Of a stretch of 64,000 nt of DNA, positions 22,777 through 40,540 are shown one piece after another. The notes beneath the pieces are model-generated. The model searched no databases, was not told where the DNA came from, and worked only from the letters and a program-made list of their open reading frames with translations. The first letter of the stretch is position 1. Each line of letters starts with the position of its first letter. The stretch comes from Heliorestis convoluta (GTDB lineage: Bacteria > Bacillota > Desulfitobacteriia > Heliobacteriales > Heliobacteriaceae), in the NCBI RefSeq assembly GCF_009649955.1, contig NZ_CP045875.1, positions 2,275,501 to 2,339,500 on the forward strand, in the 5' to 3' direction. A program made the translations under genes and the position numbers.

Positions 22777-23011
22777 CCACCACAACCTCCTTTTTCATAA
22801 TCGAAAATTATCTCTCGCATCGGGCACCGATAGGTATTATACCATATATTTGATATTTTTTTAAGTTTTATTTCATCTAGTTTTTTGGTAAAATTTACAA
22901 GGAGACTCTTTTTCATAGCTTGACCCAGCATAAGATTGATTTTTGTGTTACTATACCGTAAAGAAGACTTTCTTATCCAGACTTTTTACGAAAGGGGCGT
23001 ACTTTTGTACT

Positions 23012-24103
23012 GTGGAAAACCTATTATACCTGGATACACTTTTTAAAGATCTTGTGATAGCGACAACCATATTCTTTTTCTTCCTTTTACTTCGCAAAAT
23101 TTTTACTCGTTACGTTTATCAGTTGATCCTAAGAATCCTTCACAAGACGGAAACGGAGTTTATCACTCGCATTTTCCTTGCTTTTGAAAAACCTTCGCAG
23201 TTTTTCTTTATATTTATCGGTATTTACGTTTCACTGAAATACGTTGACTTATCGCCTTACTATCAAGATCTATCTCTGAAATTCTTCCGCTCTGCCCTGA
23301 TTGCTTTAATCGCCTGGGGGCTTTATAACCTTAGTGATGTTTATACGGGCATTTTCAGCACTCTAGAGAAGCGGCTCAGTGTAGAGTTTAATGAGATTTT
23401 AGTTTCTTTTTTCTCTAAGGTACTTCGAGTGATCGTTGTTTTGTTTGCTGCTAGTATTATTGCCCAAGAGTGGGGCTATCGAGTAGAAGGGCTTGTTGCC
23501 GGTCTAGGTTTAGGTGGCTTGGCTTTTGCACTGGCCGCTCAGAATACCTTGTCCAACATTTTTGGTGGCGTAGTCATTATCATGGACAGGCCTTTTTCCA
23601 TCGGTGATTGGATTAAAACGCCCAGTGTGGAAGGTACTGTAGAGGATATTAGTTTTCGCAGCACCAAGGTTCGAACTTTTGCCCAGGCTCTTGTCACGGT
23701 ACCCAATTCTACGCTGGCCAATGAAGCGATTACGAATTGGTCACGGATGGGAAAACGGCAAATTGCTTTCCATGTCGGTGTTACATATGATACGACGCGT
23801 GAACAAATGGAAAAAACGGTCGCTTCTATCAAGGATATGCTTGTCAATCATCCTGAGGTTCACCCCGAGACTATCTTCGTTGTCTTTGACAAATACAATG
23901 ATAGTAGCCTCGATATCTTCCTTTATTTCTTTACAAAGACCACAGTTTGGGGCGAGTTCTTAGCTGTAAAGCAAGATGTAAATCTTAAGATTATGGAAAT
24001 TCTTGAAGAGAACAATGTATCGGTAGCTTTCCCCACTACAACAGTCCATGTGGAAAAGTCCTCAGAAGAAGAGCTTTCTTTTCGGAAAATGCCTCTCGCT
24101 TAA
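23012..24103 (+). CDS. MscS-family mechanosensitive channel
   Basis: The protein of about 363 residues has several N-terminal membrane helices and a conserved pore-lining and beta domain: 'GLVAGLGLGGLAFALAAQNTLSNIFGGVVIIMDRPFSIGDWIKTPSVEGTVEDISFRSTKVRTFAQALVTVPNS'. It is close to the YkuT type. It would release ions and solutes on hypo-osmotic shock. The open frame starts at 22943, but the GTG at 23012 follows an AAGGGGCG site (13 nt gap), and the upstream residues are not membrane-like, so I prefer it with moderate confidence. A terminator follows at 24113. Confidence 0.9.
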   Translation: MENLLYLDTLFKDLVIATTIFFFFLLLRKIFTRYVYQLILRILHKTETEFITRIFLAFEKPSQFFFIFIGIYVSLKYVDLSPYYQDLSLKFFRSALIALIAWGLYNLSDVYTGIFSTLEKRLSVEFNEILVSFFSKVLRVIVVLFAASIIAQEWGYRVEGLVAGLGLGGLAFALAAQNTLSNIFGGVVIIMDRPFSIGDWIKTPSVEGTVEDISFRSTKVRTFAQALVTVPNSTLANEAITNWSRMGKRQIAFHVGVTYDTTREQMEKTVASIKDMLVNHPEVHPETIFVVFDKYNDSSLDIFLYFFTKTTVWGEFLAVKQDVNLKIMEILEENNVSVAFPTTTVHVEKSSEEELSFRKMPLA

Positions 24104-24112
24104 ACAGCAACG

Positions 24113-24155
24113 ACCTCCTTGTTGGGCTCTAAGACAAGGAGGTTTTGCTTTTTTC
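24113..24155 (+). terminator. Terminator after the mechanosensitive channel gene
   Basis: ACCTCCTTG (24113-24121) pairs with CAAGGAGGT (24135-24143), followed by TTTTGCTTTTTT. Confidence 0.85.
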
Positions 24156-24225: not shown

Positions 24226-24322
24226 TTATCTACAACCTTGTCCACACCAAGAAAGCCTGCTATTTCAACCTTTCCACAGCTTTATCCACATTATCCACAA
24301 TACTGCTATCCCCTTATCCACA
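24226..24322 (+). promoter_or_regulatory. Cluster of six co-oriented DnaA boxes
   Basis: Three perfect DnaA boxes TTATCCACA start at 24282, 24291 and 24314. One-mismatch boxes TTATCTACA (24226) and TTGTCCACA (24238) and a weaker CTTTCCACA (24270) accompany them. All lie on the plus strand within 97 bp of gene-free DNA between mscS and a small membrane protein gene. Such a cluster is typical of an origin, a DnaA-titration site or a DnaA-regulated promoter. dnaA itself is not in the window. Confidence 0.8.
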
Positions 24323-24427
24323 TGGCCTATTGGGTCGTTTTTTTCAGAAATTTCCAGATATCTGGGGCTTATAAAAATCGAATAATGACATACTGATGAA
24401 CGAATGAATACTGTGAGGTGTTGCTTT

Positions 24428-24769
24428 TTGGCACCGATTCTTCTGATGTTACTAATCGGCAGTTTGCTGATTGCTCTTGTTGTAACGTTCCAGACGAAAT
24501 ATATAGACCCTACTTTGTTGGAAGTGGCCAAATATAATCTCTATACTTTCCCCTTTATGTTCGTAGCCAATACAATGCTTTTTATTGCTTTTACGAAAGG
24601 GCAAGCTATTTTTGGTTCTTTAGCTGTTGTTGTGGGCATGCAAATCGCCATCTACATGCTGGCAATCGCCCTGTTTGGCTACTTCATTCTAGCACAGCAA
24701 CCGAGTTGGAACACTCTAATCGGAATCTCTTTGTTAGTAAGTGCTGTTTTTTTCTTGAATCGAGGGTAA
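24428..24769 (+). CDS. Small four-helix membrane protein, EamA/SMR-like
   Basis: A product of about 113 residues with four strongly hydrophobic segments and few charged residues, resembling half of an EamA-type transporter or an SMR-like protein ('FVANTMLFIAFTKGQAIFGSLAVVVGMQIAIYMLAIALFGYF', 'LIGISLLVSAVFFLNRG'). The substrate is unknown. I prefer the TTG at 24428, seven nt after GAGGTG; an ATG at 24404 is possible. It lies directly downstream of the DnaA-box cluster, so DnaA may affect its transcription. Confidence 0.55.
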   Translation: MAPILLMLLIGSLLIALVVTFQTKYIDPTLLEVAKYNLYTFPFMFVANTMLFIAFTKGQAIFGSLAVVVGMQIAIYMLAIALFGYFILAQQPSWNTLIGISLLVSAVFFLNRG

Positions 24770-30568: not shown

Positions 30569-31815
30569 TTACATCCGATCTACTACAGCTTGTGCAAATT
30601 GAGAAGTTTTTACTTCATTGGCGCCTTCAATACCGCGAGCCAGGTCATAGGTCACCACTTTGTCCTGAATGGCTTTTTCAATCCCTTTAATGATGAGATC
30701 GGCCGCTTCTTGCCACCCTAGGTGCTCTAACATCATGACACCGGAAAGAATGACAGAACTGGGGTTAATTTTGTCGAGACCTGCATATTTCGGTGCTGTG
30801 CCATGGGTTGCTTCAAAAACAGCATATTCGTCAGAAAGGTTGCCGCCGGGTGCCATACCAAGGCCTCCTACTTGAGCGGCTAGAGCGTCAGATAAGTAGT
30901 CACCATTTAAGTTGGGAGAAGCAAGTACGTCATACTCGTTAGGGCGGATTAAAGCTTGCTGGAACATGTTATCGGCAATGCGATCTTTTAAGACAATCTT
31001 GCCTTCAGGCGCTTTGCCTTCATACTTCGCCCAGAGCTCATCTTCTGTAATCACTTGATCAGCAAATTCATCTCTAGCCAATTCATAGCCCCAGTCTTTA
31101 AAAGCACCTTCTGTAAATTTCATAATGTTGCCTTTGTGAACTAGGGTTACGCTTTTGCGCTTATGCTGAATGGCGTATTGAATTGCTTTGCGAATGAGGC
31201 GTTTACTTCCAAAGTCAGTCATGGGCTTTAATCCCAAAGCTGTGCCGTCCCGTAAAATTTTAACGCCTAGTTCGTTGCGGAAAAATTCAACGGCTTTTTC
31301 AGCTTCTTCAGAACCGGCTTGCCACTCCAAACCAGCATAAACGTCTTCTGTATTTTCACGGAAAATAACCATGCTTACTTTTTCAGGCTCTCTTACAGGA
31401 CTGGGAACACCATCAAAATAGCGCACAGGACGGACGCAAGCATAGAGATCAAGAACTTGGCGAAGTGTCACGTTCAGGGAGCGAAAACCGCCTCCTACAG
31501 GTGTTGTTAAAGGACCCTTGATCCCGACACGAAACTCTTTAAATGCTTCTACCGTCTCTTCAGGGAGCCACTCGCCACATTTGTCTTTTGCTTTCTCACC
31601 AGCATAGACTTCCATCCAAGCAATGGATTTTTTGCCACCATAGCTTTTTCTACAGCAGCATCAAAGACTTGCTGAGAAGCACGCCAAATATCAGGACCAG
31701 TCCCATCACCTTCAATGAAGGGAATAACCGGTTTATCAGGTACTTGTAAAGAGCCATTTGCATACTGAATTGCTTCACCCTGCGCAGGTACTTGTGCATA
31801 TTGGTACTTAGCCAT
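30569..31815 (-). pseudogene. icd: Isocitrate dehydrogenase (NADP), split by one frameshift
   Basis: Residues 1-59 are read in one frame (from the ATG at 31815, GGAGG upstream; '[29 protein letters not shown]'). The remainder, '[29 protein letters not shown]...VQAVVDRM'-like sequence to the stop at 30569, is in another. A single missing base near 31642 explains the break: with one more T (minus strand) the sequence reads [20 protein letters not shown], as in other isocitrate dehydrogenases. Phosphorylation-site and substrate residues '[15 protein letters not shown]' are intact. A sequencing error or a recent mutation are both possible. The gene would supply 2-oxoglutarate. It lies upstream of mdh. 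Confidence 0.9.
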
Positions 31816-39162: not shown

Positions 39163-40540
39163 TTATAAATTTAATCTTTGTTGCACTGATTGAATTGCTT
39201 TTTGCACAGCTTCTACAGCCGGTCCCCCCGGTACTTTGCGATCATTCACACAACGAGCCACGTCAATGGCTTCAAATACGTCTTCTTCAAAAACGGGAGA
39301 GCATCTCTGGTAATCTTCAAGAGAGAGCTCATCAAGAGAAAGACCTTTTTCCAGGCACAAGAAAACCATCTTACCCACAATTTCATGAGCTTCTCGGAAA
39401 GAGAGGCCTTTTTTCACGAGATAGTCGCTACATCGGTAGCATTGGTAAAGCCACCTTTTGCGCCTTCTTTCATCTGGTCTTTCCGTACTGTCATCGTCGC
39501 GATCATGGGGGTAAAGGCGGTAAGGCATCCTTTCACGGTGTCAATGGCATCAAAGAGCGATTCTTTATCTTCTTGCATGTCTTTGTTATAGGCTAGTGGC
39601 AAAGCTTTCATGACCGTCAGCAATGCCATTAAAGAGCCGTAGACTCGACCTGTTTTTCCACGAATTAACTCTGCCACATCCGGATTTTTCTTTTGTGGCA
39701 TCATAGAGCTACCGGTCGAGTAGGCATCATCAAGCTCGATAAAAGAAAATTCTTGGCTGCTCCAAAGGATAATTTCTTCACAAAAGCGAGACAAATGCAT
39801 CATGATCATGGAGGCGGCACTGCAAAATTCAATGGCAAAGTCACGATCAGAAACAGCATCTAAGCTGTTTTCTGTAATGCCATCAAAAAGAAGCTCCTCG
39901 GCAACACCTTCACGGTCCAGGGAAAAGGTAGTACCTGCCAAGCACCGGAGCCAAGAGGAGAAAGGTTCATCCGGCGAGCACAGTCTTTTAATCTACCCAG
40001 GTCACGTTCAAACATCTGTACATAAGCAAGCAAATGATGGGCCAATGTTATCGGTTGCGCTTTTTGCAGATGGGTATAGCCTGGCATAATAGTATCGATA
40101 TTCTCTTCTGCTCGTTCTAAAAGCGTTTTGATCAAGCTTTGAAGAAGAATCATTGTTTCTTCGATTTCGTCGCGAAGATAAAGTCGTATATCTAATGCCA
40201 CTTGGTCATTGCGACTGCGACCAGTGTGCAATTTCTTACCAACTTCTCCTACTCTCTCTGTGAGCAGTTTTTCTATATTCATGTGAATATCTTCAGCAGC
40301 TACGTCAAATTCAACGGTACCTGCATCAATATCAGCTAGAATGGCACCTAGACCTTCGAGAATCTTGTTCGCATCTTCTAGCGTAATAATCCCTTGCCGA
40401 CCTAGCATTCTCGCATGGGCCATAGAGCCTTTGATATCTTGACGGTACAGACGCTGATCAAAGCGAATGGAAGAATGAAAATCTTCTACCACTTTGTCTG
40501 TCCCTTTCTGAAAACGACCACCCCAGAGTTTTTCTGTCAC
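39163..40540 (-). pseudogene. argH: Argininosuccinate lyase with two frameshifts
   Basis: Three overlapping frames cover all of ArgH. The first part ends in '...[12 protein letters not shown]', the second runs '[12 protein letters not shown]...[10 protein letters not shown]', and the third '[18 protein letters not shown]...QSVQQRLNL'. Adding one T to a T run near 39941-39946 and one G near 39421-39424 (minus-strand reading) rejoins a full-length enzyme of about 458 residues. Signature '[12 protein letters not shown]' is intact. The start is a GTG with AAGGAGG 9 nt upstream. It would split argininosuccinate to arginine and fumarate. No other arg genes are next to it. Confidence 0.92.

Follow-up and report, generated by a model that had tools for sequence, protein, structure and literature searches.

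A Cluster of Six DnaA Boxes Downstream of mscS in Heliorestis convoluta

In the photosynthetic soda-lake bacterium Heliorestis convoluta, a gene encoding an MscS-type mechanosensitive channel (positions 22943 to 24103, plus strand; Pfam MS_channel domains) is followed on the same strand by a gene for a small membrane protein (24428 to 24769), and six DnaA boxes lie between the two genes, in the gap from the mscS stop (24103) to the likely TTG start of the second gene (24428), where just short mechanical open reading frames are present. Positions are those of the window, i.e. the whole 64,000-bp stretch that was analyzed (genome positions 2,275,501 to 2,339,500), which belongs to the chromosome of H. 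convoluta HH (CP045875; PMC7143216), a single contig of 3,218,981 bp. Read from the TTG at 24428, the small membrane protein has 113 amino acids, its mechanical open reading frame starting at an ATG at 24404, and it showed a weak EamA/DMT-like similarity below the Pfam cut-offs. Inspection by eye revealed on the plus strand an inverted repeat (ACCTCCTTG/CAAGGAGGT) followed by a T-rich stretch (24113 to 24143), which is probably the mscS terminator, and a putative extended -10 element (TGaCATACT, 24386 to 24394) located 66 bp past the last DnaA box; a promoter scan listed other weak sites and did not recover this element as such. An Rfam search of the array region revealed no structured RNA.

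A box scan agreed with the initial annotation of this DNA, which had described co-oriented boxes spaced by 9 to 32 bp in a gene-free gap. All six boxes are on the plus strand, between 24226 and 24322 (genome positions 2,299,726 to 2,299,822), three of them being perfect, two having one mismatch and one having two mismatches. They start at 24226, 24238, 24270, 24282, 24291, and 24314, with start-to-start distances of 12, 32, 12, 9, and 23 bp. Box 1 (TTATCTACA, 24226 to 24234) and box 2 (TTGTCCACA, 24238 to 24246) carry one mismatch each, and box 3 (CTTTCCACA, 24270 to 24278), with two mismatches, is located 3 bp ahead of box 4. The three perfect boxes share the sequence TTATCCACA; box 4 (24282 to 24290) abuts box 5 (24291 to 24299) with zero spacer, the two making up an 18-mer, TTATCCACATTATCCACA, which is found repeatedly in genomes of the phylum, and box 6 extends from 24314 to 24322.

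The whole window contains 23 boxes with one mismatch at most, a mild enrichment with respect to the 14.4 expected, and it is the local clustering that constitutes the outlier. The Poisson expectation of finding at least five same-strand boxes (one mismatch at most) within 97 bp is about 2 × 10⁻⁷ per genome, and more than three clustered boxes were never observed in 60 Markov-simulated 64-kb windows. When perfect boxes were counted throughout the genome, 40 were found versus 15 for the reversed control, and 3 of these 40 are in the array.

The Array Is Located Far from the dnaA Locus

A single dnaA gene was found at about 801–802 kb of the genome, flanked on both sides by perfect boxes, with a dnaN-like gene (so assigned by its position) and gyrB at one side and rpmH at the other. 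An origin near 801 kb fits the coding direction observed in sampled 20-kb stretches, which is mainly leftward from about 320 to 740 kb and, for a large part of the region from about 840 to 2,020 kb, mainly rightward. The GC skew of the sampled 20-kb stretches was patchy and often did not follow the gene strand. Located at 2,300 kb of the 3,219-kb chromosome, the array was placed away from dnaA in the initial annotation, and the distance is indeed 1.50 Mb out of a maximum possible of 1.61 Mb. It is therefore not proximal to oriC, and it is not next to dnaA-dnaN, the usual location of oriC in Bacillota. The terminus would be at about 2.5–2.6 Mb, as placed from the sampled gene-strand bias, and a search for a dif site with a Bacillus-like consensus did not find any. 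A scan for the DnaA-trio gave no match at the array and, with the same pattern, none at the genome's own oriC. Clustered beyond chance and lying outside the dnaA locus, the array is in these respects an off-oriC DnaA-box cluster of the kind described in Bacillus subtilis.

No inflection of the skew or of the gene strand was seen at the array (24 kb), and within the window the genes and the skew turn from mostly leftward to rightward at about 40–42 kb, i.e. 16–18 kb to the right of the array. The presence of pdxST and serS in this part of the window had raised the idea of an origin-neighbor position. In ten complete relatives, each a single contig, serS starts at about 10–11 kb, and in relative G005 some 62 kb separate it from the boxes of the dnaA region. 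The numbering is taken to start at dnaA, which boxes near position 1 suggest for relative G010 and which is an assumption for the remaining genomes, as is the position of dnaA in G005. Because serS is 1.53 Mb from dnaA in H. convoluta, the serS block appears to have moved. The pdxST-serS block (window positions 40000 to 64000) is thus best read as a relocated origin-proximal piece, and the switch in strand and skew as a rearrangement junction, an arrangement that speaks against the origin-neighbor position.

The sampling of the chromosome also revealed that the plus strand from 1,120,001 to 1,132,000 is strongly C- and A-rich over about 12 kb, with a GC skew down to -0.47 and an AT skew up to +0.51. 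This stretch contains a 1,186-codon open frame starting with SLH-like repeats, and its skew is contrary to the expected leading-strand sign.

The Boxes Are Conserved in the Sister Species Heliorestis acidaminivorans

Conservation of the array was analyzed by comparison with a second species of the genus, H. acidaminivorans DSM 24790 (NZ_WBXO01000014.1), which keeps the gene order around the array. In the alignment of the two species, 53 of the 54 box bases are identical, every spacing is kept, and there is no indel within the array. Boxes 1 to 5 are unchanged, and the sole change affects box 6, whose counterpart, TTTTCCACA, is still a one-mismatch box. The identity outside the boxes was 27 of 43 bases in the spacers within the array and 135 of 227 in the remaining gap (about 60% together), and the difference was supported by Fisher tests of the boxes versus all other intergenic bases (p about 7 × 10⁻¹⁰) or versus the spacers alone (p about 4 × 10⁻⁶). 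Moreover, the order and spacing of the array with respect to the extended -10-like element, which reads TGgCATAAT in H. acidaminivorans, are kept in both Heliorestis species.

Outside Heliorestis, the mscS orthologues of three relatives (G010, G012, and G022) have no adjoining array, which rules out that the array is tied to mscS. Similarly, H. mobile, H. chlorum, and UBA2598 have the small membrane gene but no boxes beside it. With the gene present in other genera where the array is missing, a tie to this gene is rejected as well, and from these comparisons the array looks Heliorestis-specific. Judged from its sequence and from the two species compared, it is a real and conserved off-oriC DnaA-box array, of a kind already known from B. 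subtilis.

Abutting DnaA Boxes Recur at Fixed Positions in Other Genomes

Further DnaA-box clusters were found in H. convoluta outside the dnaA locus, at 844.5 kb (844543 to 844616), 1,522.9 kb (1522893 to 1522994), 2,621.1 kb (2621135 to 2621177), and 2,891.9 kb. Three mutually abutting boxes are present at 1,522,919–1,522,945, and two abutting perfect boxes at 2,621,135. The cluster at 2,891.9 kb is located 3' of tsaD and comprises TTATACACATTATCCACA at 2,891,940 plus two weaker boxes; it has in common with the window array the submodule box-3 bp-box-0 bp-box, and the abutting pair of this cluster is also present in H. acidaminivorans.

A context-free search for TTATCCACATTATCCACA retrieved 66 of the 83 genomes of the class and 136 of 398 genomes sampled across the phylum, and the reversed control of this sequence was absent from the matches listed in both searches. 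A small set of marker proteins was compared by tblastn with ninety loci containing the pair, 50 from the class and 40 from outside it. Closely related species are numerous among the class loci, and hence the counts that follow are not independent. TsaD was encoded near the pair in 45 of the 90 loci, and in all 45 the pair is 3' of tsaD, on the opposite strand, and at a median distance of 171 bp, often with a third, inverted box 5–6 bp past the pair. Hpf was encoded near the pair in 15 of the 90 loci, with hpf being downstream of the pair and co-oriented in every case. The loci from outside the class were distributed among tsaD (18), hpf/comF (13), dnaA (2), and none of the markers (7).

It is worth comparing the tsaD-associated loci with B. 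subtilis, whose DnaA protein has a strong in vitro binding region (region 4), with ten sites, downstream of gcp (tsaD) and ydiF (PMC4447404). H. convoluta and most of the relatives examined have a cluster 3' of tsaD as B. subtilis does, and the gene context suggests that the tsaD-3' site and the gcp/ydiF site are of the same ancestry; the window array, in contrast, adjoins mscS and not tsaD. No description of the hpf-upstream site was found in the literature searched, which covered few subscription journals.

A Probable Role of the Array in DnaA Titration

The initial annotation had proposed that the boxes form a titration site or a DnaA-controlled locus, and the conservation of the array, together with the similar off-origin arrays at fixed places in the phylum, supports such a function as far as sequence comparison goes. 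We favor the view that this off-oriC cluster probably titrates DnaA and perhaps also affects the downstream promoter. Titration is supported by an array that is far beyond chance, by the conservation of its boxes, and by the canonical box-recognition signature (GRDHTTVIHAH) of H. convoluta DnaA, as well as by the other clusters of the genome and by the occurrence of the pair at fixed off-origin sites, one of them matching the B. subtilis gcp/ydiF region. In agreement with this reading, B. subtilis initiates replication early when six of its off-oriC clusters are deleted, as summarized in reviews (PMC5295017 and PMC13220808); one review, however, considers these clusters minor for initiation control. 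The B. subtilis clusters (Okumura et al. 2012, as outlined in the same reviews) resemble the array in having several intergenic boxes away from dnaA and in being several per genome, but the array has other neighbor genes and is terminus-proximal and not oriC-proximal. Because a position near the terminus implies low copy number and late replication, the array would be a weaker titrator than origin-proximal clusters.

A titrating array might work as follows. DnaA would first occupy the perfect abutting pair (boxes 4 and 5) and box 6, and the weaker upstream boxes would be filled next, by cooperative spreading. The main effect would most likely be that several DnaA molecules are kept off oriC and free DnaA is thereby buffered, and as a side effect the array-bound DnaA may alter transcription from the promoter located 66 bp downstream.

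In B. subtilis, DnaA regulates sda, ywlC, and other genes. A possible, albeit doubtful, explanation of the array is that DnaA bound to it acts as an activator or repressor of the small membrane gene (24428), whose expression would thus be coupled to the replication state. The position upstream of a promoter suits regulation equally well, since the array ends 66 bp upstream of the shared extended -10-like element and this layout is kept in two species. The sda/yqeG promoter region of B. subtilis also has a DnaA-box array upstream of a small gene, although the gene is unrelated, and the strong off-oriC sites of that bacterium are often upstream of DnaA-regulated genes (PMC4447404). However, the counterparts of this gene outside Heliorestis (H. 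mobile, H. chlorum, and UBA2598) lack boxes, and the EamA/DMT-like function of the gene has no obvious link to replication. Such a responsive promoter and DnaA titration are compatible and do not exclude each other.

It is very unlikely that DnaA assembly on the array changes the nucleotide state of the protein, by ATP hydrolysis or ADP release, as an element like datA or DARS would do. The Escherichia coli datA, DARS1, and DARS2 loci are also off-oriC DnaA-box clusters, and the off-oriC location, strict spacing, and abutting boxes of the array would fit an element of this type, but those loci belong to a distant phylum, depend on IHF or Fis as partners, are not known outside E. coli-like bacteria, and have been reported absent from B. 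subtilis (PMC13220808). That the boxes are chance or decaying functionless sequences, or sites of another regulator with a similar motif, might agree with an array that lies beside mscS in the genus Heliorestis only, but it is highly improbable given the chance expectation calculated above and the almost complete retention of the boxes in surroundings that have diverged by 40%. Finally, a second replication origin, as considered in the initial annotation, or a cryptic one, which a box density resembling that of an oriC half and the flip of gene strand and skew to the right of the array could suggest, is practically ruled out by the full dnaA-linked oriC with its own box clusters at about 801 kb and by the lack of an inflection at the array, the nearby flip being explained by the relocated serS block.

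To our knowledge, DnaA control in Bacillota outside Bacillus is little studied. The array and the tsaD-3' and hpf-upstream positions would offer defined and deletable targets for studying off-oriC DnaA binding as a conserved control layer. An unlikely but broader scenario is that Clostridia-type Bacillota possess a conserved off-oriC DnaA control set, composed of the site 3' of tsaD, the site upstream of hpf, and lineage-specific ones such as the array, in which abutting boxes would order DnaA into an activity-regulating complex. If true, this set would be a functional counterpart of datA and DARS in a group from which no such element is known. As a single site, the array is of moderate interest, to which the recurrent tsaD and hpf positions add somewhat.

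Two coding sequences on the minus strand of the window were found to be interrupted. An argH-like sequence (39163 to 40540) is split into overlapping frames (39860 to 40540, 39414 to 39941, and 39163 to 39528) by frameshifts that are either real or sequencing errors, and an isocitrate dehydrogenase-like sequence (30569 to 31815) is distributed over two frames (31549 to 31815 and 30569 to 31615), which may reflect a frameshift.
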